Source: a virus. From it: 31,493 bases of DNA. The stretch covers positions 1 through 31,493 of IMG/VR virus record IMGVR_UViG_3300040943_000156; one strand, written 5' to 3'. This document shows, piece after piece, positions 3,523-26,949 of the stretch. The number at the start of each line of letters is the position of its first letter. The first letter of the stretch is position 1. Under the pieces are notes generated by a model. The model did no database searches, was not told where the DNA came from, and worked only from the letters and a program-made list of their open reading frames with translations. A program made the translations under genes and the position numbers.

Positions 3523-3679
3523 ATTCATTCCCTTGCAGTGTTTAAACGTCCATGGCGTGGTCTTCCTATATCTCTCATAAGTGGTTGCAAGGCGCACACC
3601 ATTAGTCATCCGACCGCCCCACCAGAGCGAGTCAGACAGGCTAATTTAGCGCTAAGGATGAAGGTTTTATTTTCAATAG
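3523..3679. other. Intergenic region between fibre gene and lysis block
   Basis: 157 bases. It holds copy 1 of the dispersed repeat, a perfect 10-bp palindrome TTAGCGCTAA near 3647-3656 and an AT-rich stretch just after the fibre stop codon. This is the natural place for a late promoter or regulator site serving the lysis genes, but no textbook -35/-10 pair is convincing. Confidence 0.4.
3565..3609 (-). repeat. Copy 1 of a 45-nt dispersed repeat with an exact 32-nt core
   Basis: The 32 bases at 3574-3605 recur exactly at 26554-26585 in the same orientation. Over 45 bases (3565-3609 versus 26545-26589) 40 match, and all five differences are A/G exchanges on the minus strand. Copy 1 lies between the fibre gene and the membrane protein gene; copy 2 lies inside a coding region. 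Both copies read in frame as a short peptide with the core NGVRLATTYE. Confidence 0.9.
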
Positions 3680-5326: not shown

Positions 5327-8300
5327 TTAGTCACCATTGATATAAAATTGGCCGTTATCCGGCAGATTGGCCGTGGCATCCGTGATTAAGGGCAGGGTTG
5401 CCGTGCCGGAGAATCCGCGCCCCACCACCGCGCTCATCTGATACACATTTACCGTGATCGTTCCCTGCACCACGCCAAAATCGAGTTGCTGGAGCGAGGC
5501 CGGATAAACCGCCGTGGGCTGCTCCACGGTCAAGGTGCGCACCACCCCGCTTGGACTACCGCCCAGAATATCAACTTGGTATTGCTCGATTTTCTCATTG
5601 AGAGGGCCGCCCATGCCGTCCACCAGGGCCTCTCCATCCGTACCGTAAGCTCCGCCGAACCGCGTGCGCCGCAGCCAACAGATCGTCCAATTGCCGGAGG
5701 AGTCTTGCGAGCCGCCGATAGCCACCGGGCTGTAAGGTCTAAGCTCTTGGCCCGTAAAGGTAAAATCCTTGGATGACGTGGCCCCCAGAGTACTCCCGTT
5801 CTGCACGCAGCGGTAATATCGCATCAGGCCCAAAAGGGCATCGGGCTCCGCGTTGTGCATCAGGCCGGGCACTCCCAAAACAATCACGTTTTCACTCGCT
5901 CCGTGAGTTGAGCAGTATCCCTCCGTGCCCCGCCGCCCGCGCAAGAGGTTTGATAGTATCCAGGTGCCGTCCGATTGCTGCGCCGCCGTTTCAAACTGAA
6001 TCACCTCTTGGCCCACCAGCAGAAAATTCTGGCCCTCTTGGGTAAGCTGCGCCTGAGTGGCGTTGGCAAAGCTCCCACTCGATATAAGCTGCACGCGCAA
6101 AGTATTCGCCGTATCGAGCACCCAGGGAGAAAAGGGAGCCGCAGGAGAGCCCACGCCCGCCGCGCTCAGAGCGTTAAGGGCCGTGCCATAGGTGAGCGCT
6201 CCGTTAATGCTTGGCCCCTCCGTCGAAAAATCCGTACCCTCCGCAGAGGTGTAGAGTTGAGCGCCCGCGAAACCGATGGGAGCCGTCACCCCGTAGTAAT
6301 AGCCCGTGCCGGAAGGATTAGCGTCCGAATCCGCGAGCAAGGGAATGTCATAGAGCAAGAGCGTCATGGGCACCTGTACGGGAGCTTGGCCGCCCGCGTT
6401 GGGATTGGATTGCCCGGCTTGCGCTTGCGAGAGATAGAGTTTAGGATTGTCCAGCACGCCCGTGAGGTGCATGGCCCGGCCCGCGCCCTCGCTGGTCTTC
6501 TGAATCCGCATCTGACGAGTAACACCACGTCCCGTAAAGGTAACGATGTCGGTGGGCACCAGCATGGAATAGACTGCCTTCCAGGTGCTGTAATCGAAAG
6601 TGTCACGCTCCAGGTAGGAAAGATAAAGAGACTTCTCCGCAATCTGCAGAGCCGTATCGCCCTCCAGCGCCATGGGCAACTCATAAATCACGTGCGAGCG
6701 GGTCTTGACCACCTTGACGGAGCGCTGCTTGGATTGCTTGCCTTGCTCCCAATTAATGGCCGGGTCAGCATAGTTAATCTGCACGCTGCGCGGCAAGTCC
6801 TGCACCTGAGCAAAAGATTCCTGATACTCCGTCTTGTCCTCGATCAAGCCCAAATCCGCCTCCGGTATGTTGAAGCACGGGTCCTGACCTCGCGGTATGA
6901 AGGTCAACTTGCCGTCCACTTCCACGGCATCGAAAAAATAAGCCGTGGCCAAGGGTTGCAGGCACTGCTGGCCCGATGATGCCCGGCCAATCACGTAACC
7001 GATGACCGGCATGCCCAGGAGCCGCGAGGTGTCCACTTGCGACTCCTCCAGGCCGCATCTTAGACAGATGTCGAGCACGGCATCTCCCAGATCACCCGTG
7101 GGCATGGCATTCACAAACGTAGCTCCGCCCTCAATCACAACCGTGCATGCCTGCGCTTGGCCCGGAGTACTTGTATAATCAACCGTCAGAGGCAGGGCCG
7201 CATTGGCGGAGGCGTAAAAGCCGCTCGAGTGGCCGTTGGGAGTACGGTTTAAAGTCTCAATATTGGTGATTCCCGGCCCAATTTCAGCCGGATAGACCGG
7301 AGGCGCCTGATTGAAGTGATAAAAGTCGGAGCCCGTGCCGTCATGCGCCACGATGCCGCTTACCGTGCAGGAACTCGCGGAGCCCCATGCCACGGAGGTA
7401 AGCTGCAAGGACTGCGAGGGCTGGGCCTGCCCCGTACCCCAAACCCGCAGGGCACCCGCGCCCAACACCTCGAATACCACGAAGTCGAGCCATCCGGCAT
7501 TATTGCTGATATCGAACTTCCATGAGTTGCCGTCTCCGGCCTGAACCGTGCGCCAGCACGCCCCGGCATTATCGACAATCGGGCTGCCGATGTTACCCGA
7601 TGGGCTTGAGGAGTCCACGGAAAATTGAGGCGTAGTGGTCTGATAGTAAGCGCCTCCGGCATAGCCCGAGATCAGAAACACCAGCACGTTGCCCTCTTGC
7701 GGAGTATTGGGCAAAGAGAGCGTGACGGAGGTTGGCACGCCGGAGCCCGAGCCGCCAGTACCCGCCGTGGCGCTAGCCATCTGAATGAGCGTAGGCACCC
7801 CGGAGGTGTAATTCAGTTGGGTCTGAAATTGAATCTCCGCCCGAATATTGGGAATCCGGTTGCCGAAATTCTTGAGCGGAAAGTTTTCCCAGGCCGCATA
7901 ACAGAGCCCGCGAAAGGCCGGAGTATTCTCCACCCCCTCGCTCTCTTGAATGAGGCTCATGGGCTCTTGATCCTCCGTGCCCATGAAAACATCGGGCGAG
8001 GGATAAATGGAGGCCGGAGGCGCAGTTTCCTCGCTTCCGGTTGGATCGTTGGTGTTGCCGTCCGGGCCGTACCACTGGATTTTATTACCCGTAGCATAGC
8101 CCTCCGCCGTGGTGGTCACGTTGGCATCGGAGGTAATCTGGCCCAGATACTCTCCCTCTCCGCCCTGATAGTTGGCTCCGTCACCTCCGGGATTCACAAT
8201 CGCGCTCACCGTCACGGTCTGCCCGGCCTGTAAATTCTGCAACGCAATGACGGGCGAGGTGCCCCCCACGTCTCCAAAGGAGTAAGCGGCATTTTCCGCG

Positions 8301-9023: not shown

Positions 9024-9060
9024 TAATCTCAAGTCTCAGACTTGAAATTTGAAATCAAAA
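9024..9060. repeat. AT-rich palindromic junction repeat
   Basis: CAAGTCT-C-AGACTTG (9030-9044) is a perfect 7-bp inverted repeat, followed by GAAATTTGAAATC. The stop codon of the methyltransferase gene (TGA, 9057-9055) lies inside the element. It resembles the AAATTTGAGATTTG sequence at 21475-21506 and the shorter form near 27298-27310. Confidence 0.6.
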
Positions 9061-9735
9061 AGTTAAAACCTCTTGCGCCATGCGCTCCGCCGCCGCCTCG
9101 CAATAACGCTCAACCTTCTCGATGCCAATGCACTTGACTCCCGCATCCTTGCACGCCCGGAGCGAGGAGCCGGAGCCCATAAACGGATCAATCACGCTCC
9201 CGGCCTCCGGCACAAACTTGAGGCACCATGCAAAAAGCTCTTTAGGCTTCTGGGTTGGGTGTACCCGCTTGCGGCCTCGCATCTCTCCAGCCCGAATCAT
9301 GCCATTCCAAAGAAAGCGAAAGATGCGCAGGGATTGATCTAAATTACTCCAAGCCAACTCTCCGTCCGCGAAGTCTCCCGAGTTGAGCTTGTCCCACACC
9401 AGCCAAGCCCTGGAGGGAGGCAGGGCAAAATAGTTGCCGCCCCAGATGATGGCCTTGGGAGCCGCCGCGAGCAAGGCCGCTATCTCCTCTTGACTCGCGG
9501 GCCGCTTGTCCCAATCAAAATCCCCGTAATCGGTAGCCGCCCAAACCGCCGAGTTGGTAGAAGCCCGACCGCCGCCGAGTGGTCTATTTCCACGTGAAAG
9601 GTTGCGGGCGTTATTCTCACCCATCCCGTACGGCGGATCAGTCATCACCAAGTCAGCCGAAGGTAGCGAGGGCAGCACCTCCAGGCAATCACCGTGGTAA
9701 ATGGTGATAAGCCCGTCTTGGTAATAGGGTTTCAA
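9055..9735 (-). CDS. DNA methyltransferase, N4/N6 type (beta-class order)
   Basis: 226 residues. Motif IV DPPYG is at 33-37 and the AdoMet-binding motif I DPFMGSGSS at 183-191, the order of beta-class N6-adenine or N4-cytosine methyltransferases. WGGNYFALPPS and HPTQKPKEL are further family blocks. No restriction gene is adjacent, so this is an orphan enzyme that may protect phage DNA from host restriction or mark it. Target base and sequence cannot be told. The start is a TTG immediately after the stop codon of the peptidase gene, with GGGGGTGG upstream; no ATG fits. Its position between two tail genes is unusual. Confidence 0.88.
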   Translation of the reverse strand: MKPYYQDGLITIYHGDCLEVLPSLPSADLVMTDPPYGMGENNARNLSRGNRPLGGGRASTNSAVWAATDYGDFDWDKRPASQEEIAALLAAAPKAIIWGGNYFALPPSRAWLVWDKLNSGDFADGELAWSNLDQSLRIFRFLWNGMIRAGEMRGRKRVHPTQKPKELFAWCLKFVPEAGSVIDPFMGSGSSLRACKDAGVKCIGIEKVERYCEAAAERMAQEVLTF

Positions 9736-10182
9736 CTATCCCACCCCCGGTATCGAAAAGCACGCTTCGATGCGCCGCACCCACTTGCGGTCTAAGCCCA
9801 CCTCAACCACCCTGTGCTGAGCGAGCCGCCCGCCAACCCTCGCGCCAGGGCCGCCCGCCGCGTGCACGATGCCGCGCTCCGTCAGTATCGCCGAGTGCAC
9901 GGGATCAACCGGAGCCCGGAATACCAGCACGTCACCCGGCAAGCGCTGATAGATGGGCTTGGAAACGAGCCGGGCATTACAGGCTTCCACCACCACCCGG
10001 CCCACCGGCCGGGCTGAATAGTTCTTGAATTCCGCGAGGTAATCACCCAAACCCAAGTCGCGCATTACGCACAGAACCAAGCCTACGCAGTCCACGCCCA
10101 TGCCGCACCTGCGGCCCTGATGCGCAAAGGGCGTGCCCAGCCACTTTCGGGCCTCATTCACTACCTGTGTGCGAGTCACCAT
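9736..10182 (-). CDS. NlpC/P60 family phage peptidase (RcGTA gp14-like tail protein)
   Basis: 148 residues. GVDCVGLV gives the catalytic Cys at 32, and VDPVHSAIL the catalytic His at 96; LGTPFAHQGR is the typical N-terminal block. This fits phage cell-wall peptidases of the tail tip, which open peptidoglycan during DNA entry. In GTA-like tail clusters this gene lies between the DUF2163 protein and the large tail-tip protein, as here, apart from inserted genes. The ATG shares one base with the stop of the SSB gene (TAATG), so translation is probably coupled. Confidence 0.88.
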   Translation of the reverse strand: MVTRTQVVNEARKWLGTPFAHQGRRCGMGVDCVGLVLCVMRDLGLGDYLAEFKNYSARPVGRVVVEACNARLVSKPIYQRLPGDVLVFRAPVDPVHSAILTERGIVHAAGGPGARVGGRLAQHRVVEVGLDRKWVRRIEACFSIPGVG

Positions 10183-10637
10183 TAAAAGGGCACGTCCTCA
10201 TCCGTAATTTCTCCAAGCTCTGGGCCTGCAGGCCCAGACTGCGAGGCCGGAGCCGCCGCCCGCTCCGCCGCATCTGAGCCGTAAGCGGAGCCCTCGCCAG
10301 CGGGCCGCGAGTTTGACTTCGAGCCCAACATGCGCATCTCACGGCATACTATGACCGTAGCCCGCCGCTTCTCTCCGTTCTTCTCCCACTCCTCATAGCG
10401 TATCCGGCCCTCCACATAGACCAGAGCGCCCTTGCGCAGGTACTCTTGGCATATCTCCGCGAGCTTGCCCCATACGCGTACAGTGTGCCATTCCGTACGC
10501 TCCTGCCGTGCTCCCGCCCTGTCCTTAAACTTCTCGCTTGTAGCGAGTGAAAACTTACAAACCGCCGCACCCGAAGGCGTGTATTTTGTCTCCGGTTCCT
10601 GCCCCAAGCGGCCCACCAGCGTAACCTTGTTAACCAT
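10182..10637 (-). CDS. ssb: Single-stranded DNA-binding protein
   Basis: 151 residues from the ATG at 10637, with AAAGGGGTGG upstream. The OB-fold core begins MVNKVTLVGRLGQEPE and continues with TEWHTVRVWGKLAEI and GALVYVEGRIRYEEWE, the standard bacterial/phage SSB pattern. A low-complexity linker leads to an acidic tip ending DEDVPF, which in SSBs recruits replication and repair proteins. It binds and protects single-stranded DNA in replication and recombination. It stands between the DUF2163 and NlpC tail genes, far from the DnaB helicase. Confidence 0.95.
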   Translation of the reverse strand: MVNKVTLVGRLGQEPETKYTPSGAAVCKFSLATSEKFKDRAGARQERTEWHTVRVWGKLAEICQEYLRKGALVYVEGRIRYEEWEKNGEKRRATVIVCREMRMLGSKSNSRPAGEGSAYGSDAAERAAAPASQSGPAGPELGEITDEDVPF

Positions 10638-10653
10638 TTTAAAACCACCCCTT

Positions 10654-11562
10654 TTAGAGTGCAGATGTGGCATAGGACAACACCAAGTCCATGCCCGGTA
10701 TAAACGGCTCTGCCCTAAAATTAACGATGTTATTAAACTTCAAACACCCCGTCGCGCCCGCCGTCTTATCACAGCCGGGCCAGATGGTGAAGGTATCGCC
10801 CGGAGCGGGCGGCTGCGGAAAAGGCAGAAACATATCGAGGTTCGTGCCGTCGAAAGCCTTAACCTCAAAACTCTTGCCGCTGAGCACGCCGGAGGTGAAG
10901 GTGATCATGCCGTTATCGAAATAGCCCTCCGCGCCCAGACTCCCCGCAGGGATGAGCGTCATGGGATCGGGCGAGGAGGAGACAGAGCCCGATTGCTGGT
11001 AGGGCGCCGCGCTCAGGTTGCAATACCAGGGCCGCCAGCCGCCATCGTCTCCGCCCGGAGTTGAGAAAAGCTCCGCCCGGCAGGTTGGTCCGTAAGTATC
11101 GCCCAGGGACGTGGCCAGCTTCTGGGTTAGCCCTCGCAACTCCGCCGTGAACATTCCGTTTTTCATGTGCACCGCGCCCAGGTATCCTACGCGCTGGACC
11201 ATATCTCCCATGGTTAAATCCGCCCAATTCACCACGCGCTGAATAATCGCGCAGTTATCGTATACGCCAGCGCTAATATCGCTCTCTGAGATGGCGGAGG
11301 AGTCGAGAAATGCCGTCACCTCCAGGTTGTCAATGGAAAGGTCGGAGCCAGAGTCAATGGCCGTATGAGTCATCCCGGTTGACGCCTCATAGGTCACGGG
11401 ATAGGGATCGGGCAGAGGGCCGGAGCTTTGGTAGCTGATATTTTGGTCGTGGGTGGTAAACCCCATCACCACGCCATCCTGCCGGATCACGGCCCACAGC
11501 GTTGCTAGCGTGGTACAATCAAGCCCGAAATGTTGCTGCAAATTAACCGATGCCGTCTTCAT
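10654..11562 (-). CDS. DUF2163 / BR0599-type tail protein (RcGTA gp13-like)
   Basis: 302 residues from the ATG at 11562. The N-terminus has VIRQDGVVMGFTTHD, the middle SDLSIDNLEVTAFL and AELRGLTQKLA, and the C-terminus the Cys-containing block GCDKTAGATGCLKFNN with NFRAEPFIPGMD. This is the signature of the phage BR0599 C-terminal domain joined to DUF2163. In the Rhodobacter GTA the equivalent is a distal tail (hub) component that can bind an iron-sulphur cluster; the Cys residues near the C-terminus would suit that. It shares ATGA with a small upstream ORF and precedes ssb by 16 bases. Confidence 0.88.
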   Translation of the reverse strand: MKTASVNLQQHFGLDCTTLATLWAVIRQDGVVMGFTTHDQNISYQSSGPLPDPYPVTYEASTGMTHTAIDSGSDLSIDNLEVTAFLDSSAISESDISAGVYDNCAIIQRVVNWADLTMGDMVQRVGYLGAVHMKNGMFTAELRGLTQKLATSLGDTYGPTCRAELFSTPGGDDGGWRPWYCNLSAAPYQQSGSVSSSPDPMTLIPAGSLGAEGYFDNGMITFTSGVLSGKSFEVKAFDGTNLDMFLPFPQPPAPGDTFTIWPGCDKTAGATGCLKFNNIVNFRAEPFIPGMDLVLSYATSAL

Positions 11563-11696
11563 CGAATCCACCCCAGGACACAGGAGAGCACGTCCGAGCA
11601 CGCCCGATATAGCGCCCATGCCTCGCCCAGCGCCGCGAACTCCGCCACGAGCCCGGCAAGCGCCAGCGCCCAAACCAAGTAAGAAAGTTTTTTCAT
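11559..11696 (-). CDS. Small hydrophobic peptide, 45 residues, unknown
   Basis: An ORF from the ATG at 11696 to a TGA overlapping the next start (ATGA). The peptide begins MKKLSYLVWALALAGLVAEF, a basic start with a hydrophobic segment like a signal peptide or membrane anchor. A middle ALGEAWALYRACSD leads to a Cys-containing end. It fills an otherwise empty stretch between the glycosyltransferase and DUF2163 genes, and the stop/start overlap suggests it is translated. The ribosome site is weak. Function unknown; it could accompany the glycosyltransferase. Confidence 0.5.
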   Translation of the reverse strand: MKKLSYLVWALALAGLVAEFAALGEAWALYRACSDVLSCVLGWIR

Positions 11697-11726
11697 AGGA
11701 TCACGGAAAAGGTAAGAGTGGGCCGC

Positions 11727-12425
11727 CTAAGCCAAACTCCCGATATCCCGGAAAAACTCCACCGGAAGCAGGCTCGCTTGCCGCTCTGGAAAGCCACGCC
11801 CGCCGAAGGGCTGCTTCCAGGTATTGGAACTATGCCCGCGAGCCACCATCAAGCTGCCCGCCTCCACGGAATCCTGTACGCCCAGCTTGGCCGCGAGAAA
11901 GGAAAACTCCGAATCCTCCGCCGAATTAAGTGACGGGAACTTGTGATCCTTCCACCAGTCGAGGCGATAACACTGCGTGGAGCCGCTGGCGTAAGAGCCC
12001 GCGCCCGTATAGATATACTCGTAGGCTTTGTGGCTGCTCTCATTCCAATAGAAAAAGCGGTGAAATCCCGTTACCATCTTTTTCTCTGAGAGTAACCGCT
12101 CCACCTGAAACTCAATCCGCGTGGGTGCATACCAGTCGTCATCATCCCAATTCACGGCAATAGAGCCACGGGCCATGCCACAAGCCGCATTGCGCTTGCC
12201 ACCTAAAGTAAAGAGGCCGGGCCGCCTTGGTGCCCAGGTATCACGGCAATAAACAATCCGAGCGTCAACCGGTACCAGATGCTCAATCGGTATTTTGCCG
12301 GTATCAAAAATAATCAGTTCGCGGTGGGCATAGGTCTGGGCCAGAAAGCACTTGATGGCCAAGGGCAGATAGGCCGCCCTATCCGCCGTAGGCATCACGC
12401 AAGACACTAAGGGTTTTTCCATCAT
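11727..12425 (-). CDS. Glycosyltransferase family 2 (GT-A fold)
   Basis: 232 residues from the ATG at 12425, which overlaps the stop of the DUF2460 gene as ATGA. KPLVSCVMPTADR at the N-terminus is the usual first strand and loop. LGGKRNAACGMARGSIAVNW leads to DDDDW at 94-98, the DxD-type metal and nucleotide-sugar site. A later SAEDSEFSF supplies the conserved E-D of the acceptor region. It should transfer a sugar from a nucleotide donor; the acceptor could be a virion protein or a host envelope glycan. No membrane anchor is visible. It is out of place between two tail genes. Confidence 0.85.
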   Translation of the reverse strand: MMEKPLVSCVMPTADRAAYLPLAIKCFLAQTYAHRELIIFDTGKIPIEHLVPVDARIVYCRDTWAPRRPGLFTLGGKRNAACGMARGSIAVNWDDDDWYAPTRIEFQVERLLSEKKMVTGFHRFFYWNESSHKAYEYIYTGAGSYASGSTQCYRLDWWKDHKFPSLNSAEDSEFSFLAAKLGVQDSVEAGSLMVARGHSSNTWKQPFGGRGFPERQASLLPVEFFRDIGSLA

Positions 12426-13108
12426 GCGCCCAGACTCCCGGCTCCCGTGGAAAGCAGCCTTACCTCCACCAGCGTTACATCCGGCCAACTCACCAGGGCG
12501 TTGCCGTCCGCAACGTCCGACTCCTCAATTACCGCGTTGCAATCGTCCGTATCGAAGCGCACAGGGTAGTGGTATTTACCGCTCCAGGTCACAGGAGAGT
12601 ATCCCGCGCCCGCCGCGAGCGTCAGGAGGCCCGTAGTGGAATCTAGCGTCCAGCCCGTCACTACGGAGCCGCCCACCTCGATAACCGGTTCGCTGGTACA
12701 ATACGTGCCGTCAAACTTGACCACTGCCGTGGTGACAGGCTTGACAACGGCCTTGGTATAGCTTCGTATCCCTATCGCCCAAGTCTTCTGCAGTTGATAG
12801 ACGCGCCCGGTATAAGGCGAGTCCGTCACCGGAGCACAGAGTTGATTGACCGCTTGACAGTCCTTAGGATCAAGGAATCTAAAACTGTCCGCCTTGCCTC
12901 CCACGTTCAACCAAAAGTTATACACATCATTAAAATACCATTGCGGTTTATGATCGAGAACGATACGCCAGCGCCCGCGAGAGAAAGCCCAATTGCGGTT
13001 ACGCTGCTCGAAACCGGAGAAGCCCTCGTTGACTTGGGTTGAGAAGCCTTGCCCGCCCGCCGCTTGAAAAGCGATATGCTCTGGAAACTCACACTCGAAG
13101 AAAGGCAT
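12422..13108 (-). CDS. DUF2460 distal tail protein (RcGTA gp12-like)
   Basis: 228 residues. GGQGFSTQVNEGFSGFEQRN near the N-terminus, NFWLNVGGKADSFRFLDPKD, and a C-terminal PVRFDTDD are the pattern of DUF2460 proteins. In GTA-like tails this is a distal tail protein attached below the tube. The order tape measure, DUF2460, DUF2163, NlpC, tail tip is kept here apart from inserted genes. The ATG at 13108 follows about 210 bases of non-coding DNA containing a possible terminator, so a new transcript may start here. It ends with an ATGA overlap to the glycosyltransferase. Confidence 0.88.
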   Translation of the reverse strand: MPFFECEFPEHIAFQAAGGQGFSTQVNEGFSGFEQRNRNWAFSRGRWRIVLDHKPQWYFNDVYNFWLNVGGKADSFRFLDPKDCQAVNQLCAPVTDSPYTGRVYQLQKTWAIGIRSYTKAVVKPVTTAVVKFDGTYCTSEPVIEVGGSVVTGWTLDSTTGLLTLAAGAGYSPVTWSGKYHYPVRFDTDDCNAVIEESDVADGNALVSWPDVTLVEVRLLSTGAGSLGA

Positions 13109-13316: not shown

Positions 13317-15743
13317 TTAGGAGTTGCGTCCGTGCAGCACTTGCATGGTGCGCCATCCGTCCGTCAGGAGTTGCTGCTGAGATCGCTTGAAAGAGTTAGC
13401 ATCAGGAGTGCTAATGTTGTACACGGGAGCGTAATGCAAGGGCCTCAGTGACTGCATGGCCAGCGAGGGCACGACCGTGCCCGAAGCATGCGGCACGAAA
13501 AACTCAGGATGCTTTTCCCCTACCACGTAAGCATGCCCCGGAGTCACGTCTCCACCGCCAGCCAGAAAACCGCCAAACCACGAGCCCAGCGTTGAAAGGG
13601 CCGGGCCAAAAGCCTTGAGCGCTCCGCCAATCGCTCCGCCAATCCCAGAAAGGGCGCCCCGCACTCCGCCGCCGCTTGCATCAGCGCCCAACACGCCTCC
13701 GCTCGCGCCGTCACCCTGAGCACCCGCACCGCCCGCGAGCAGGCCCTTGACCGCATCCGCGAAACGGACATAGAAGGGATTGCCCTGCGAGCCGTCAGCC
13801 TTGGAGAATCCACCACCCACACCCAGCTTGCCCAGCACCCCGGAGACAGCCTTCTGCATGCCGATTTTGAGAAACGATTCCTCCATGCCCTGAGCGAGTT
13901 GCTTAAAGCCGCCCTTGCCGGTCACTACCAGCCGGGCAAAAGCATCCTCGATAGAGTCTAGTGAGCGAGTAAGCACGGATACCAGATGAGCGCCCGCGTC
14001 ATCCCCGGCAATCTTAATCTCTTCCAGTTGAGTTTTGAGCGAGTCACCAAAGCTCATGTTAGCGCCCAGCCGGTCTAACCTGGTGAGCCACGCAATGAGC
14101 TTTTGGCCCTCCGCATTGGCCGCTATTTCCCTGGTCGTCAAGCCAGGAAAGGTATCGGCCAAGCGCTTAAAGGAACTGTCGGAGAGTTGAGTCTCTTGCT
14201 CCAGGGCCTTGAAATAACCCCGAAGCCTGTCCGTCTCCGTGCCCAGGTTGGCCTCTTGCTGGGCTGTCAAGTCAAGCGCTGGCCCTTGCGTGAGGCCGCC
14301 CATGCCGGGCACGGACGGTATCATCTTTTTGGTAAAGTCAATCTCAGGAGCGCCGCCCGCCGCCGCGAAAGACTCACCCCAGAGAGGCAACTTAGGAACC
14401 TTAACCGCCGTGTCTATATACTCTTGGATTTTGCGCTTGTAAATGTCGAGCGCCAAAGTCTGGGCCGTATACGCCTCCGCAAGATTGCCGCCCGCTTGCA
14501 CTTGCTTGTCAATCTCGCGCAGGGTACGGTCATACTCCGCTTGAATCTCGCGGAATTTATTCCCGTGAATACCAAGTTCTGAAACCTCATCACGCTCTCG
14601 CTCGATAAGCGCCGCCAGCGCATCCGAGTGAGCCTTGATGCCATTGACCAGACCATCCTCATGCTCCGTGGCCGCTTGCTGTCCCGTGGTGAGGCTCTGA
14701 AGGTTCACCTCATAGTCCGTCTGGGCCTGCACGGAATCCGCATAGGCTTTCTTGAGGCTCGCCCACTCCTCCATAATCCCCTTTGCGCCCTCAAAAGGAG
14801 AGGTGACAACCGCGCCCAGGAGCGCTACGGTGTGGGCAATCACTCCGCCCATGCCCTGCATGCCAATCATGGTGCGGTTGAGGAGAGGAATCACCTTGCC
14901 GCCCAGCGTGAGCGTGAAAGCGCTCCACTGAGCCGTCATCTCGCGCACGGCCACTTGATACTGCTTGGCCTGCGCAATGCGGCCCGCGTCAAAGTATACG
15001 CCCAGCTTCTTGGCTTGCTCGATAGCCGGAGCGTAGCCCTGCATGGCCAGCAAGCGCAAGGTGATCACGTTTTCAGACCAGCCACGGCCCAGCAATTGAT
15101 TGAGGGCGAGGTTGCGCTGCCCCGCATCGTGGAGGGCAAAGATACTGTGCAGCACACCTTGAATTCTATCGCCCATGGGCTTGAGGCCAAGCTCCGCCGC
15201 TCCCCGCGCTCCGCCCATCAAATCCCAAAGCATCTTGTTGGCATGGCCGCCGCCCTCCGCCGTCTTTTCGAGGTTGGCACCGGCCCGCGAAAGCGAGGTA
15301 GTAAGGGCCTCAAAGCTCCCACCCGTCTCTTTCGTAAGAGCATACAGGCCGCTCATTTGAGTAGCGCTGATACCGGTCTTAGTAGAGGCCGTGCCAATCG
15401 CAGAGCCCACCTCCGCCGCGTGGTTGGCCAGCGCAATCATGCCGCCTCCCACCGCCGTGATACTCCCCAAGACGGAGCCCGCGAGCAGCACGGCCAGGCC
15501 GCGCCCGTTGCGCCCGGCCACGTCGAAAGCCTCTTTCGCCTTGTACCCTATTCCGTCCAGTACGGCGCCCGCCGTCTGGCCAGCAGGCCCCAAGGCTCCC
15601 AGGGCCTCGCTCACCCCGCCCAGCCCGGCCCGGATGTCTTTCCCGGTACGCTTGGCCGCAATACTGGCGGAGTCCATACCAGAAAGAAACTTCCCGGTAT
15701 TGGCCACCAGTTCAACGTAAATCGACCCCAGAGAGAAAGCCAT
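13317..15743 (-). CDS. Tail tape measure protein
   Basis: 808 residues. The N-terminus (MAFSLGSIYVELVANTGKF) and the next 80 residues with a long Ala/Gly-rich helical region match phage tape measure proteins. Apolar segments at about 80-105 and 290-320 could insert in the host membrane. Coiled-coil stretches with KALEQETQLSDSSF fill the middle, and the C-terminus has GGGDVTPGHAYVVGEKHPEF, a common end block. The protein sets tail length and is ejected during infection. By the rule of about 1.5 angstrom per residue the tail would be about 120 nm. It starts 4 bases after the second tail chaperone frame. Confidence 0.9.
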   Translation of the reverse strand: MAFSLGSIYVELVANTGKFLSGMDSASIAAKRTGKDIRAGLGGVSEALGALGPAGQTAGAVLDGIGYKAKEAFDVAGRNGRGLAVLLAGSVLGSITAVGGGMIALANHAAEVGSAIGTASTKTGISATQMSGLYALTKETGGSFEALTTSLSRAGANLEKTAEGGGHANKMLWDLMGGARGAAELGLKPMGDRIQGVLHSIFALHDAGQRNLALNQLLGRGWSENVITLRLLAMQGYAPAIEQAKKLGVYFDAGRIAQAKQYQVAVREMTAQWSAFTLTLGGKVIPLLNRTMIGMQGMGGVIAHTVALLGAVVTSPFEGAKGIMEEWASLKKAYADSVQAQTDYEVNLQSLTTGQQAATEHEDGLVNGIKAHSDALAALIERERDEVSELGIHGNKFREIQAEYDRTLREIDKQVQAGGNLAEAYTAQTLALDIYKRKIQEYIDTAVKVPKLPLWGESFAAAGGAPEIDFTKKMIPSVPGMGGLTQGPALDLTAQQEANLGTETDRLRGYFKALEQETQLSDSSFKRLADTFPGLTTREIAANAEGQKLIAWLTRLDRLGANMSFGDSLKTQLEEIKIAGDDAGAHLVSVLTRSLDSIEDAFARLVVTGKGGFKQLAQGMEESFLKIGMQKAVSGVLGKLGVGGGFSKADGSQGNPFYVRFADAVKGLLAGGAGAQGDGASGGVLGADASGGGVRGALSGIGGAIGGALKAFGPALSTLGSWFGGFLAGGGDVTPGHAYVVGEKHPEFFVPHASGTVVPSLAMQSLRPLHYAPVYNISTPDANSFKRSQQQLLTDGWRTMQVLHGRNS

Positions 15744-15747
15744 CCGC

Positions 15748-16068
15748 CTACCTGCCTATCTGTCTGCCTGCCGTTTTTTTCTTGCCCTTAACGCCCGGCC
15801 CGCACTTGAGGGCCGCCGCGACCACTCTAATTTGCTCCGCGAGGCTCATACTCTTGCGGCCCTCGCTGGGCATAAAATCAACCGGGCTCACCGGCTCCGC
15901 GTTTTTCGAGCGGTAAGGGTTGGCGTTATAGACCGCCGCCGCCACGATGCCGGAATAGAAGCAAGCCCGCTTGTGCGCCGCTTGCTTGCGCGTCAGCATT
16001 TCGTGAAAGGTGCCCGGAGTCGTTGCCCCAAACTCGCTCAGGCTCAAGCCCAGATCAATCCTTGCCAT
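15748..16068 (-). CDS. Tail assembly chaperone, second frame (TAC C-terminal part)
   Basis: 106 residues from the ATG at 16068, but the frame is open further upstream to a TGA at 16146. The upstream part reads GQPLTWAELWA and continues into MARIDLGLSLSEFGATTPGT. The L-x-L-S-x-x-E-F-x-x-x-T-P block is typical of the small tail chaperone (rcc01693-like, phage TAC) domain. It begins before the ATG, so the natural product is probably a fusion made by -1 frameshifting from the gene at 16089-16547, as in lambda G/T. The fusion would have about 266 residues. Independent initiation at 16068 is possible. The end is basic (KGKKKTAGRQIGR). Confidence 0.75.
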   Translation of the reverse strand: MARIDLGLSLSEFGATTPGTFHEMLTRKQAAHKRACFYSGIVAAAVYNANPYRSKNAEPVSPVDFMPSEGRKSMSLAEQIRVVAAALKCGPGVKGKKKTAGRQIGR

Positions 16069-16088: not shown

Positions 16089-16547
16089 TTAGAGGTTGGC
16101 CGCCTCCGCGCCCGTCTTCGGCGGAGTCGGCCGGATAGGGTTTTCACCGCGCAGGGCTTTCTCTTTCGCCTCCATCACGGCCTTGCGCTCATCCTCCGGC
16201 AAGGCCAGGGCGTGAGCCTCGTATAGCGCCTCAAAAACCTTGTCTTGGTTGCCACGATCCATGTAAGAGCGGATGCAAGCCAAGCCCTCCTCCGAGTCGT
16301 ATTCCGGGTGGCAAGCCAGGATAGAGGCCCAGAAAATCAGCGAAAGGCTGGAGGCATTCAAGCCCAGCCAGAGCTTTTGCCCCGTTGAATCTTGGCCCGT
16401 GCGCTCATGGATCAATGCCAGAGCGTTGTAATCGAAAGTGAGCCGGAAAACTTTCTGCATCTCGGAGCCGTCATCATCTCGCAAATCGAGAGCGAGCGAG
16501 ACTCCGGGCGCAATGCGCCGCTTCAGTGCCTGCGTCTTGTTGCTCAT
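16089..16547 (-). CDS. Tail assembly chaperone, first frame (lambda gpG/RcGTA gp10-like)
   Basis: 152 residues. It lies between the tail tube and tape measure genes, the standard place of the tail chaperone that coats the tape measure before tube assembly. VFRLTFDYNALALIHERTGQ is a typical family block. The protein is otherwise helical and acidic in the middle. AAAGGGGGA stands just before the ATG at 16547. The slippery heptamer A AAC CCT occurs at codons 135-137, 16 codons before the stop, directing a fraction of ribosomes into the second frame. Confidence 0.82.
   Translation of the reverse strand: MSNKTQALKRRIAPGVSLALDLRDDDGSEMQKVFRLTFDYNALALIHERTGQDSTGQKLWLGLNASSLSLIFWASILACHPEYDSEEGLACIRSYMDRGNQDKVFEALYEAHALALPEDERKAVMEAKEKALRGENPIRPTPPKTGAEAANL
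16137..16143 (-). promoter_or_regulatory. Candidate -1 ribosomal frameshift heptamer A AAC CCT
   Basis: In the zero frame the codons are GAA AAC CCT, so AAACCCT has the X-XXY-YYZ pattern. In the -1 frame a TGA ends right before it (16146-16144), and from there that frame is open through the second chaperone ORF. Y=C is less common in bacteria than Y=A, so efficiency is uncertain. Confidence 0.6.
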
Positions 16548-17602: not shown

Positions 17603-18113
17603 TTTTCTTGATCTCCTCCGCGAGAATCAGCGTCAAGCCATCCGCAAAGCGGTTGATAACCTCATCACCCTTGCTCTCGAAAGTGGGCCGTACAAAGGAC
17701 TGGTCTTTCATAAAAGAGGAGCCGCCGCTCCGCCGCTTGCGCCCGCCCATACCCAGCATGGAGGAGAGGGATTCTCCGGCCCGGCTTGCCTTTCGCCCTA
17801 TCTCTTGAAAGAGGCCCCAATACGTTCTCTTGCTTGGCCCCACCCGCACCGCGCCCTGCAAGTCGGAGTTAATGATGCGCTGCATGCCGATGTGCGAGGC
17901 AAGATCACCGGGCCAGCGTACCTCTTTAGGGTTTTCGGAGAGCTTAACCTTATCGAGCTTGGGAGCCCGGAGGCGCATCTCATCAACCCAAGCCTTGCAC
18001 GCATAAGTCATGGCCTCGCGGAGCGCCCGCCGCGCCACGTCGAGAGGCATGCGCTCTAGCGTGCGCTGCAGTTTTTCGAGGCCGACTACCTTGACATCCA
18101 GTTCGCCGCTCAT
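17595..18113 (-). CDS. HK97 gp10-like neck/tail protein
   Basis: 172 residues. GLEKLQRTLERMPLDVARRA is followed by ACKAWVDEMRLRAPK, then GPSKRTYWGLFQEIGRKASR and SFVRPTFESKGDEVINRF. The last two blocks are the usual W/Y-x-x-x-x-E-x-G and P-F/A-x-R-P-x-F/A signatures of the HK97 gp10 family. These proteins act at the head-tail interface. The ATG shares ATGA with the adaptor gene and the end overlaps the DUF3168 gene. Confidence 0.85.
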   Translation of the reverse strand: MSGELDVKVVGLEKLQRTLERMPLDVARRALREAMTYACKAWVDEMRLRAPKLDKVKLSENPKEVRWPGDLASHIGMQRIINSDLQGAVRVGPSKRTYWGLFQEIGRKASRAGESLSSMLGMGGRKRRSGGSSFMKDQSFVRPTFESKGDEVINRFADGLTLILAEEIKKNV

Positions 18114-18564: not shown

Positions 18565-19248
18565 TTAATTTTCCTCATAGCCCATTACCGTAACCTTGTA
18601 AGGCGTAAGCAGCCGCGTCACCCCGATAGGCAACTCCACGAGCTTAAGGTCCGTGGTTGCCTCGCGGTTTTCATAGAGGTGAGCCGCGAGCAGGAGCACA
18701 GCCGCCTTGACCAGCTTGGGGCAAGTATCCACCGTGGCTCCGTCTCCGTAGCTTCCAGCCGTGTAAGTGATCTTGACGGAATCTGGCAGGTACATATCCG
18801 TGTAAGGCCAGTATTGGCCGTAGCGGGGCACTACGGAGCCCGGAGTGCCGTCCGTATCCACGTAGTAGGTTGCCGGGTCAGCCGTCTGAAGGTTGGCCGC
18901 CATATCGAGGTAAGTAATGCTCGCAACCGACACCAGGGACGGGCGAGGCAACTTAATGCGAAAGGCTTTCCAGAATGTGGAATAGTACCAAGCCTCGTGC
19001 AGGGAAGTGCTCCGCTGGGTGCCGTTCCACCAGGGAAAGAGCGGGAAGTGGTCAAGCGTGAGTTGCCATGTCTGATTATAGATGGCCCGCTTCATCTCGT
19101 TTTCGCAAAGCTCGCGGGCCGCTGGCATATAGATGCCGGTAAACAAGTCGTCGTCATCCGCAATCGTCACCCGGCAATGCTGCTTCACTTGCTCCAGCGT
19201 CACAGGCTCAACAACCGGAGCGGTAAGCATCTTGAGATTCAGAATCAT
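18565..19248 (-). CDS. Head-tail connector protein (gp6-like)
   Basis: 227 residues from the ATG at 19248. PVTLEQVKQHCRVTIADDDD and then YMPAARELCENEMKRAI are the helical N-terminal block of phage gp6-type head-tail connectors (adaptor ring on the portal). LPRPSLVSVASITYLD and DSVKITYTAGSYGDG match the middle beta region. The C-terminal helices (AAVLLLAAHLYENREAT) are typical too. A TTG at 19260 would add four residues. It is preceded on the minus strand by a terminator after the capsid gene, so it may be expressed at a lower level. Confidence 0.87.
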   Translation of the reverse strand: MILNLKMLTAPVVEPVTLEQVKQHCRVTIADDDDLFTGIYMPAARELCENEMKRAIYNQTWQLTLDHFPLFPWWNGTQRSTSLHEAWYYSTFWKAFRIKLPRPSLVSVASITYLDMAANLQTADPATYYVDTDGTPGSVVPRYGQYWPYTDMYLPDSVKITYTAGSYGDGATVDTCPKLVKAAVLLLAAHLYENREATTDLKLVELPIGVTRLLTPYKVTVMGYEEN

Positions 19249-19268
19249 AGTATTAACCAAAACGGTAG

Positions 19269-19378: not shown

Positions 19379-19950
19379 TTATTTCTGGGTGAGGGCGATT
19401 ATCGGGTGAGTTCCAGCGTCCGTAGAAATTCCACCCGCACGGCAATACCCCAAGAAGCCAACCTCCAGGGTGTCCATGAAGCGCTCATTCAAGCGCACAA
19501 TCGCCAACCCCGGCTTGACTTCGCGGAGCAGATACCCCTGCTTAAAGTCGCCATAGAGCACGGAGACAGCCCCGGAATTGGAGCTTGTCCCACTGGCCGC
19601 ATTCTCCATGTACTGATTGAGCACCACGCGCTTACCCAGCAGAGTATCAAAGGTGCCCACCGTTGGAGCCGGAATGTACAAAGGACGGCCCAGGGTGTCA
19701 GTAACGCCCAGCAGAGTGGCACGAGTCTTGGAATTGAAACTCCAGATGGCATCGATCCCATAGGCCGGGTCAAGAGCGCCGTATATGGCCACAAGGTCTG
19801 CCCACTGGATGGGCTTGGTAGTATCGAGTGTCGTCACCGCATCGTAGGCCGCCGTCAATAGCGACTCGATATTCTGGGCAACCGAAGGAGAGCCCGCGAA
19901 GGTGCCGTTGGTGACAAGGCTCGTCAGGCCGCGATAGTAGCGCTTGGAAA
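19379..19950 (-). CDS. Major capsid protein, C-terminal part in shifted frame
   Basis: About 190 codons beginning SKRYYRGLTSLVTNGTF and continuing with PIQWADLVAIYGALDP, then SFNSKTRATLLGVTDTLGRP and later ALIVRL-like AIVRLNERFMDTLEVGF. This is the usual second half of HK97 coats (P-domain, A-domain, GRP...P loop). It has no start codon of its own with a ribosome site; a TTG at 19978 is the only initiation candidate in the open stretch. Joined to the N-terminal part it gives about 417 residues, a normal coat length, so the two belong to one gene separated by a +1 or equivalent frame change near 19948-19951. Confidence 0.85.
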
Positions 19951-20633
19951 ATGTCACGGATAAAGGCGTCAAGGTCAAAGGCCGAATCCTGCAACTCCGC
20001 CAGCGTCACCTTGATAATGTTGGTCTTGAGGGCGTCAGTAGAGAGCAAGAGGCTGGAGAGGCCCGGCTCAACCTCAGACATCGAGGAAGGCTCAGAATCC
20101 AGCATCAAGAGATTGCCGGTATCGTTTGAGAAGGCTATCTTCATGGGCGCGCCGTTGTCCGTCTTTTTGGTATTCAACTCCGGCAAAATCGAGCCCCAGG
20201 CTTTCTCCGCTTGCGTCAGCACGGGATAAAATTCCTGCGGAACAAAGTAGCCGCCCGTGGAGGTGGTCAAGTCGCGCTGCTCGCGCCCAGGCCGCTGGGT
20301 GCGAGTCTCTTTCTGTGCATCCGTGGGTGTGTAGGAACGCAAAACCGGAGACTTGTCTCCGTACCGAATAAAGTCAGCAAAGGCCGCCCGCGATTCATCC
20401 GCGCTCGCACCCGTACCACTCCCAGGATCACCACGCGGAATCTTGGGCAGGGCCCCATCCGCCGCCAGTTTCGAGGCCACGGACTCCATAACTCCAACGC
20501 GCTCTTCAATAGCATCCGCTTCCGAAATCATCCGCTTGGACGATGCTATTTCTTCAGCCGTCACGCCGTCTTTAATCAAGAGCGCTTGGGCATCTTTCAG
20601 TAACTTGTTGCGTTTGTCGCGCAATTCTTTCAT
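19951..20633 (-). CDS. Major capsid protein, HK97 fold, N-terminal part (frame interrupted)
   Basis: The first 228 codons hold the N-terminal delta-like helical region (about 1-60, KELRDKRNKLL and on) with a Pro/Gly linker, then DLTTSTGGYFVPQEF at about 120 and AEKAWGSILPELNTKKT. These are the start of the HK97 capsid core after the part normally removed by the protease. Homology ends at AFIRDIF; the same frame runs on to 19770 with a sequence unlike a capsid. The coat continues in another frame (19379-19978). The ATG at 20633 has GAGGTG upstream. The prohead protease gene precedes it. Confidence 0.85.
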
Positions 20634-20791: not shown

Positions 20792-21463
20792 TTAGACGTT
20801 TTCGGGCGTTTGCATGCGCCGCAAAACCTCTGCGGTAAGGGCACGGGCCTCCGCCGCGAGGCGCTTAATCTCATCCGCCCGGCTCTCAGCCGGAGCCGCT
20901 ACGGGCTCAGCCGCTGGAGGCTTAAGGTGCACCTCCAGGCTCTCCGGTTGACCATCCGGCCACAGTGAGCGAGCGCTTACGGAGGTGCCCGTATAGGCTG
21001 GGTATGTAACCGGGCTCACGTCGAATAGGTCAACATCCAAAAGCTCGCGCAAAACCGTGCGGTTGCCGGAGCCGTCGACTCCCTCGCTCCAAGCGTCTTG
21101 ATTGACCACAAAGCCAAAAGAGCATTGGTCAATGTCTCCGCGCTGTACAGAGGCCATCAAATCACGGGCCGCTTGCGTCTCCGGCATGTCGCAATCAAAG
21201 CTCAAGCCTTGGTCATCCGTCGAGAGCCGCAAGGTGTTAGCCTTGGTGCGGCCCAGCACCACGCTTGAATCGTGGTTGAATAGGCAGCGCACGTCAGGCC
21301 CGGAGCCGAGGCAGCGTTTAAACGCTCCAGGACGCACCATCTCTCGAAAGCCGCCCAAGTCCTCACTCAGTTGATTGAATACCGCCGCGTAACCGGCAAG
21401 GCCGCTTGCGCCCTCGCGCGCCCGGAATTGCGCTCCGCTAGTGACTCTGTACTCTCGTTTCAT
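20792..21463 (-). CDS. Prohead protease, HK97 gp4-like (S78/U35-type)
   Basis: 223 residues from the ATG at 21463. GYAAVFNQLSEDLGGFREMV, then LFNHDSSVVLGRT (His64) and QCSFGFVV (Ser115) are the classic catalytic blocks of phage prohead proteases. The enzyme cleaves the N-terminal delta region of the coat during maturation. The C-terminal tail is Ala/Glu-rich and helical. It lies between portal and coat genes, as in HK97 and GTA clusters. A longer start at 21487 would overlap the repeat upstream. Confidence 0.92.
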   Translation of the reverse strand: MKREYRVTSGAQFRAREGASGLAGYAAVFNQLSEDLGGFREMVRPGAFKRCLGSGPDVRCLFNHDSSVVLGRTKANTLRLSTDDQGLSFDCDMPETQAARDLMASVQRGDIDQCSFGFVVNQDAWSEGVDGSGNRTVLRELLDVDLFDVSPVTYPAYTGTSVSARSLWPDGQPESLEVHLKPPAAEPVAAPAESRADEIKRLAAEARALTAEVLRRMQTPENV

Positions 21464-21474
21464 GGTGCCCGCCC

Positions 21475-21506
21475 TCTCAAATCTCAAATTTCAAATCTCA
21501 AATTCC
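21475..21506. repeat. AAATTTGAGATTTG junction repeat
   Basis: On the minus strand the sequence is built of GAGATTTGA and AAATTTGA units. It spans the portal-protease junction and contains the portal stop codon (TGA, 21500-21498). Similar elements lie at 9024-9060 and, shorter, at 27298-27310. Confidence 0.7.
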
Positions 21507-23279
21507 GCTTGCGGCCTCGCGCCCGGCCCGCTGTGCAACCTCCGCCGATATCACGCAGAGAGCCCGTTTTAGCTCTTCCATGGCGATATAATGCACCCGC
21601 TCCGCCGCCCAGCCCGGAGCCCGCCGCGCCATGCCCTTTAAGCAATCAGCCGCCACGCCGGAGACATCCATCCAGCCCTCCGCGAGCCCAAACTTGAGCC
21701 CGTAAACATCCCGTATCTGCGCTGAAAGGCTGTCCAATACCGGCTCAAAGGCAAGCCGAAGAGTCTCCAAATCTCGCTCTTTACGGTTGCACGCCCGGCC
21801 CACAGCGTCACGAAACATCGAAATATAGGCCAGCGCAAAACGCAGCGAGTCTTTCTGCTTGGCCACGTCCTCGCCGCCTCCCCCGCCCTCATCCGTGGCC
21901 TTAACATCAACCACGCCGTCTCCGCTCGCGCCCTTGGGTTGCGGAGCGCCGCCGCCATTGGCCATCAAGAGGTTTTCGAGATTCTGCATATTGACGGGAG
22001 CCAGCCGGATATCTCCCTCCTTGCCTATCGGGTTGTCTCCCATATCCGTGAGAATGTCATTGATCGAAAGCCAACCCCATTGACGCCCCAGGGCGTAACC
22101 CGCAGAGCTTGTGGCAAAGTCTCCGCGCAACCTCTCTCGCACGTCAAACTGAGCAAAATACTTGCCCGTAGTACGCCCGGCATGCGGCATGAGCTTGCGC
22201 TCCGCCTCTTGCTCAAATCGGCACATGTAAGGCCGGAGCGTGTCTGTCACAAATTGGAGAGACTGCTGCTCGTGGTTGGAATTAGAGAGCCGCGTGGTGT
22301 CTCCCACCATGTGCGGAGCAACCCGAAAGAGCCCACAGATGTCCGTGCGGTTGTACTTGCGCGTCTCAAGGAATTGAGAGTCCTCTGGGCTCAGGCCAAT
22401 CTGTTGGTACGTCCAGTCCCCAGGGAGCACAGCCACCTTGCCCTGATTAATGCCCGCTTGCATAGCCTGCCAGGATTCGCGCACTTGGCTAATCGTGGTT
22501 TCGTCGATTACCGCACCCGTGGTTGGGTGCAGGATACCTCCGGGTTTCGAGCCATTACCAAAAAACCTTGCTCCGAATTTCTCCGCCGCCCGCGCTCCGC
22601 CGATGAGTTGCCTTTGCAGGGCCACAGGACTCAAGCCCTTGAGCCCGTCAAAACTGAATAAGGGGACGTGAAAAATTTTTTCTGGAGGGATATACCTCCA
22701 GTTTCCCATCTTTTCGCCGTCCGTGGTGCGATAGGCGATATTGCCGTCCGCAAGACGCACGGGCTCTGTCTTGTTAGGATGCAACGGGAATATCGCCGCA
22801 ACCTTGCCCGCCTTGTTCTCCACGATCTGGGCATAGCAGTTGCCGGTCAAAGCACAGCACCCGGCCATAGTCTCCCAGAAAGTAAAGGCCGTCATCTCCG
22901 GGTTGGGCGCGTATTGGAGCAGATAATAAAGCTCATGCTCGATAGCCTCTTTGCGCCCGGCTGGGTCTAAGCGCTCATAGATCTTGAGCGGCAGCGAGGC
23001 CACGCTCTCCGAAATCACCCGCACGCAGGCATAGACCGTGGCTTGCTGGAGGGCCGTATAATCATTGACCGTCTCACCGGCCTCTGTCGTCTCTCCGGCA
23101 AACAACCACGCCCAGAAACCAGGGCCGCCCAGAGGCGTGGCCGGATTTTCCAGCGGGTTGCCGTCTCGTTGCTCCAGGCCGTCATTCAAGCCCAGGCGTA
23201 TCATGTCGGTTTGCTGCGCCTGCCTCACGGCAAGAGCCGCCGCCCGCGTCACCATACCCAGCCGCGCTAAGATGCTCAT
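21498..23279 (-). CDS. Portal protein, HK97 family
   Basis: 593 residues. VYACVRVISESVASLPLKIY near 80-100 is the portal family's most conserved block. KIFHVPLFSFDGLKGLSPVAL and GARFFGNGSKPGGIL follow, then RVAPHMVGDTTRLSNSNHEQ and later GWLSINDI with DMGDNPI. It forms the dodecameric ring through which DNA is packed. The C-terminal 130 residues, after a Gly/Ala-rich linker (GGGGGEDVAKQKD), are an extra helical extension found in only some family members. The ATG at 23279 follows a 138-base spacer. Confidence 0.92.
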   Translation of the reverse strand: MSILARLGMVTRAAALAVRQAQQTDMIRLGLNDGLEQRDGNPLENPATPLGGPGFWAWLFAGETTEAGETVNDYTALQQATVYACVRVISESVASLPLKIYERLDPAGRKEAIEHELYYLLQYAPNPEMTAFTFWETMAGCCALTGNCYAQIVENKAGKVAAIFPLHPNKTEPVRLADGNIAYRTTDGEKMGNWRYIPPEKIFHVPLFSFDGLKGLSPVALQRQLIGGARAAEKFGARFFGNGSKPGGILHPTTGAVIDETTISQVRESWQAMQAGINQGKVAVLPGDWTYQQIGLSPEDSQFLETRKYNRTDICGLFRVAPHMVGDTTRLSNSNHEQQSLQFVTDTLRPYMCRFEQEAERKLMPHAGRTTGKYFAQFDVRERLRGDFATSSAGYALGRQWGWLSINDILTDMGDNPIGKEGDIRLAPVNMQNLENLLMANGGGAPQPKGASGDGVVDVKATDEGGGGGEDVAKQKDSLRFALAYISMFRDAVGRACNRKERDLETLRLAFEPVLDSLSAQIRDVYGLKFGLAEGWMDVSGVAADCLKGMARRAPGWAAERVHYIAMEELKRALCVISAEVAQRAGREAASGI

Positions 23280-26241: not shown

Positions 26242-26949
26242 TCACCCCGCAAAAGAATTAGTAGGATACGATGCCAGATTCTTGCCGATTAGAGCGCGGT
26301 ACATGGACGCGTTCAGCCTTCCAAATTCCTCAATGCGCGTCCGCTGATACTGACTGTCTTCAACGTAGGCAGACTCAATATCCTGCTCGTCAATCATCTG
26401 ACACCAGTCAATGTCAGTGACTGACTTGCCCGGCTTGCAGGCACTTGGCGCGTGCGGTGCGGCACCCTCAACGTTGGCCGCGCGGGTTCCCCTAGGTGTC
26501 TTGGCCCGCTCGCGCAGGAAAGAAGTAACCGAAATCTTCAGTTGCTCATACCCCTCATAAGTGGTTGCAAGGCGCACACCATTAGCCATTTGCCTCATCC
26601 GCCGCACCATCTCTTGAACCGCATGTTCATTAATAGCAAGGTACTTAGCAACCCTATCAGCCGTCATATGAAGCCGAAAATATAGGTACGCCACGGACGC
26701 ACGCCGAGCGTGATTGATCTCATTCCCGTTTCGCGCCTTAAATCCGCTTCCAGCCATGAGAGCAACCGCAGCCAACCCCTCATAGGTCATAGCCCACTCG
26801 GGAATTTCCTTTTCAACAAGGCGAGTTTTCTGTAGCTGAAAGCCGGACCCAATCTCATCTCCATCTATCTTCCCGCGCAACTCATCCCGAAAGCTACCGT
26901 GCATATCAGGATCAAACTGGTAAAGATCGAAGCGTGGATTACTCGCCAT
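26242..26949 (-). CDS. HTH-containing protein of unknown function
   Basis: 235 residues from the ATG at 26949, which overlaps the upstream gene by 11 bases. The N-terminal part is acidic with FDLYQFDPDMHGSFRDEL and then DEIGSGFQLQKTRLVEKEI. Around 90-120 it reads FRLHMTADRVAKYLAINEHA followed by VQEMVRRMRQ, a likely helix-turn-helix with a recognition helix, so DNA binding is plausible. The segment right after it (121-135) is the peptide encoded by copy 2 of the dispersed repeat. The C-terminal third has no clear fold. A regulator or packaging-initiation protein are both possible. Confidence 0.6.
   Translation of the reverse strand: MASNPRFDLYQFDPDMHGSFRDELRGKIDGDEIGSGFQLQKTRLVEKEIPEWAMTYEGLAAVALMAGSGFKARNGNEINHARRASVAYLYFRLHMTADRVAKYLAINEHAVQEMVRRMRQMANGVRLATTYEGYEQLKISVTSFLRERAKTPRGTRAANVEGAAPHAPSACKPGKSVTDIDWCQMIDEQDIESAYVEDSQYQRTRIEEFGRLNASMYRALIGKNLASYPTNSFAG
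26545..26589 (-). repeat. Copy 2 of the 45-nt dispersed repeat (inside the HTH gene)
   Basis: Identical to 3574-3605 over 32 bases at 26554-26585 and 40/45 overall. Here the element is read as internal codons 121-135 of the HTH protein, directly after the putative recognition helix. Confidence 0.9.

Follow-up and report, generated by a model that had tools for sequence, protein, structure and literature searches.

The window analyzed here comprises all 31,493 bases of the IMG/VR record IMGVR_UViG_3300040943_000156, a linear sequence that may be a fragment. Its minus strand encodes a standard head module, including small and large terminase, portal, prohead protease, capsid, connector and head closure genes, and further genes of the same module encode neck, tail terminator, major tail and tape measure proteins. 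The portal gene (21498-23279, minus strand; PF04860) and the prohead protease gene (20792-21487, minus strand; PF04586) are intact, as is the head-tail connector gene downstream of the capsid gene (18565-19260, minus strand; PF05135), which aligns end to end with a relative. When proteins of related viruses were searched against the window, the capsid gene was the only matched gene found to be split between frames.

The HK97-type major capsid gene begins at 20633 on the minus strand, and its second half, which runs to 19379, lies in a different frame. The first frame corresponds to a 287 amino acid ORF (20633-19770, minus strand) that starts at ATG 20633 and contributes the N-terminal half (19952-20633; positions 3-231 of a capsid profile built from relatives). 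The C-terminal half (19379-19948, minus strand; profile positions 227-409) is encoded in a second frame, +1 (equivalently -2) relative to the first, which is open from 20005 to 19379 and matches PF05065 (Phage_capsid; E = 1.8e-19). Both halves also match phrog_10 (the PHROG "major head protein") in order, at profile positions 266-464 and then 480-623, which places them in the HK97-fold major capsid family. Because the halves together cover a single capsid profile from one end to the other, the overlap of the two ORFs is not a coincidence. The frame switch maps to 19951-19945 on the minus strand, within the break sequence GACATTTTCCAAGCG (19941-19955, minus strand), which reads GAC-ATT-TTC/C-AAG-CGC in codons, the slash marking the break, and is, in DNA alignments, 2 bases shorter than in the five nearest intact relatives. 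Beyond the break, the first frame continues as a nonsense tail of unrelated sequence (19770-19945, minus strand) that ends 58 codons on, at a stop at 19772-19770. Each capsid half is itself free of stops. Thus, the split between two frames proposed in the preliminary description is confirmed, and both its coordinates and its +1 direction agree with our frame and profile mapping.

To locate the difference, as that description had called for, the window was aligned with homologous capsid genes. The closest intact relative (L004, also retrieved as L021; both are contig IMGVR_UViG_3300028800_000455) has 80% DNA identity over the capsid gene and the same neighbours as the window (terminase, portal, protease and connector), but it encodes the capsid protein in an uninterrupted frame of 430 residues. 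Near the break, the two sequences align without gaps except for two extra bases in the relative, directly after the TTC codon. All five nearest intact relatives (L004, L005, L006, L007 and L046) encode Phe-Gly-Lys-Arg at this site, and compared with them the window lacks two bases between the Phe and Lys codons. This two-base gap, not being a multiple of three, is what marks a frameshift-mutated gene relative to its intact homologues. The T run next to the break, to which a one-base change or length variation had been provisionally attributed, is equally long in L004 and in the window, so slippage on this run is not the cause; instead, two bases were lost beside it. Among all loci fetched, a single capsid ORF spans the site in 95 (about 91 distinct contigs), and the gene is split in three only, namely the window and two near-identical contigs (L002 and L003), none of which has one continuous coding frame for the HK97 fold. 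The dN/dS ratio against the closest intact relative is 0.15 in the first half and 0.19 in the second, compared with 0.08-0.26 in neighbouring head genes; the values are similar, so the deletion is too recent to be visible in these ratios. One of the fetched contigs (L124; IMGVR_UViG_3300020045_001687) has two genes for complete HK97-type capsid proteins, oriented in opposite directions (13602-15044 on the plus strand, and 5626-6885 in reverse-complement coordinates).

The two contigs that carry the same break are IMG/VR records from metagenome datasets 3300017946 and 3300018040, which differ from that of the window. The window differs from L002 at one of 4635 bases (a SNP at 17781) and from L003 at none of 4763, and all three share the same 1255-base capsid gene sequence, break included. 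An identical break in three contigs from different datasets makes a mistake in a single assembly very unlikely. Exact patterns around the break, searched to find an undeleted near-identical copy, returned just the two broken copies and L004, and a literature search for papers naming the source datasets of the contigs found none. Beyond these IMG/VR relatives, neither the capsid gene nor the head half of the window had a DNA-level match among annotated phages, in which terminase relatives have less than 60% identity. A host search in 84,980 genomes detected no close capsid relative, just proteins with 22-31% identity.

To place the break on the protein, we used a structural model of the intact L004 capsid protein (mean pLDDT 70.7), in which it falls at residues 230-232, within a 23-residue helix (222-244) that we take to be the long central ("spine") helix of the HK97 fold. 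On this model, neither fragment should fold or assemble as a capsid. The best PDB sequence match to the profile of the relatives is the HK97-fold capsid of the Rhodobacter capsulatus gene transfer agent (6tba, 6tb9), which has the same fold and aligns over nearly the full profile length but, unlike that of the window, is the product of a continuous gene.

Programmed recoding, which the preliminary description had raised as one option, did not withstand the comparison it proposed, since relatives have uninterrupted frames and no slip motif is conserved. The frame change itself is not a conserved feature, with about 91 contigs having a single frame and three near-identical ones having two, and a search for a conserved slip signal among the capsid relatives found none. 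Nor does the break carry a recognised slip motif with stimulators: an X-XXY-YYZ heptamer is absent from the 233-nt overlap of the two capsid frames, RNA downstream is no more stably folded than shuffled sequences (z = -0.42), and no Shine-Dalgarno-like stretch was seen just upstream. AUU, UUC and CAA, the codons flanking the break, are all common in this phage, none being rare. The high local DNA conservation with L004 around the break was considered as a possible signal and rejected, as conservation is equal or higher elsewhere.

A site of the programmed kind can be seen elsewhere in the window. The tail assembly chaperone gene (16547-16089, minus strand) and the ORF after it overlap in a lambda G/GT-like arrangement (16190-16080 and 15748-16068, minus strand), and a canonical -1 slip heptamer, A-AAC-CCT, is present in the correct phase at 16143. 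Of three relatives examined, L127 and L128 retain this motif and L126 lacks it, and the second-frame proteins of relatives align upstream of the annotated start. This heptamer shows what a programmed site looks like in this phage, whereas the capsid break has none.

Programmed frameshifting in coat genes is known from T7/T3, Lactobacillus phage A2, and Listeria phages PSA, A118 and A500, where a fraction of the coat protein, complete in other respects, gains a C-terminal extension through defined slip signals (PMC5009743). The window resembles these cases in having a frame change in the major head protein gene but differs from them in that the shift is located mid-fold, no complete product is made otherwise, and conserved signals are absent. 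Another known class is "corrective" frameshifting at problem indels (PMC5009743); there too an essential gene carries an indel for which decoding could make up, although in the window such compensation is a candidate only. In addition, -2 shifts that present as +1 have been described, for example at GUU_UUU (PMC10885494; PMC5009743).

Because the break is common to three contigs and absent from the other relatives, we interpret it as most likely a disabling mutation of an ordinary kind rather than a case of special decoding. We consider it probable that a single clonal population of the phage lost a working coat gene through a recent two-nucleotide deletion. According to this explanation, one lineage would recently have lost two nucleotides from the part of the gene that encodes the long central helix, between its Phe and Lys codons. 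The resulting 287-residue product would end in ~60 residues of nonsense, so that ordinary translation would not yield the full coat protein. A virus carrying the deletion presumably could not make capsids alone, and may persist either in its host, as a defective provirus, or as an inactivated clone abundant at the time of sampling. Of these, we favour passive copying in the host, but only tentatively, as no integrase or repressor was recognised within the 31.5 kb window and the host search yielded no host genome. General prophage decay was considered and rejected: with only the capsid gene split among the compared genes, the lesion appears to be a young one in an otherwise intact virus. Among the options of the preliminary description, then, the broken gene stands as the most likely, whereas an error in one contig and programmed recoding are disfavoured. 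One argument against inactivation by deletion is that loss of the coat protein should keep a virus from becoming common, yet three datasets yielded the broken form as the assembled one.

The same recurrence could have a technical origin if the three contigs, nearly identical over 9.4 kb, had a sample, a library or an assembly pipeline in common, and with it a consensus error. We regard such an artefact as improbable, and leave it a small share because the samples may not be independent; the dataset numbers differ, L002 carries its own SNP (17781), there is no notable homopolymer at the deletion, and the lack of any other frame-broken gene among those compared indicates a low density of errors. 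A biological alternative, to which we assign a slightly smaller chance still, is that the deletion is real and that ribosomes slip (-2 or +1) often enough to yield coat protein. In geometric terms, the Phe tRNA could slip by -2 from UUC (19949-19947) to UUU (19951-19949) and continue with UCC-AAG, which would preserve the length of the protein and place Ser where the relatives have Gly; it is this length-preserving geometry that keeps the idea under consideration. It would also fit with the broken allele being the one assembled in three datasets, with the stop-free halves, and with the precedents for corrective and -2-as-+1 shifts cited above. However, no relative needs or has a frame change, the break shows none of the signals or rare codons described above and has an ordinary downstream fold, and slippage in the most abundant virion protein would need very high efficiency. 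An obligatory, highly efficient mid-fold -2 (or +1) shift at AUU-UUC-C that lets the phage live with its broken gene is thus unlikely; if true, it would make this a rare coat gene in which a frame change in the middle of the protein is obligatory. Least probable by far is that the halves are made separately, the second from a TTG at 19978, and then co-assemble. The second frame does contain this start, but a well-placed ribosome-binding site before it was not seen by eye, no relative is organised in two halves, and the cut inside the modelled 23-residue helix in the middle of the HK97-fold protein means that neither half should assemble, which makes separately made halves unlikely. Understood as a disabling deletion, the break documents a loss-of-function capsid indel, with little significance by itself, and cautions that records of uncultured viruses can carry real inactivating mutations.

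Two further features of the window were observed. The tail module includes genes for a glycosyltransferase, a single-strand binding protein and a DNA methylase (9055-12488, minus strand), the last of which matches just the end of its Pfam profile. Finally, a 42-base direct repeat (3568-3609 and 26548-26589) has copies that are 93% identical, 23 kb apart, and located within two small genes that are otherwise different.
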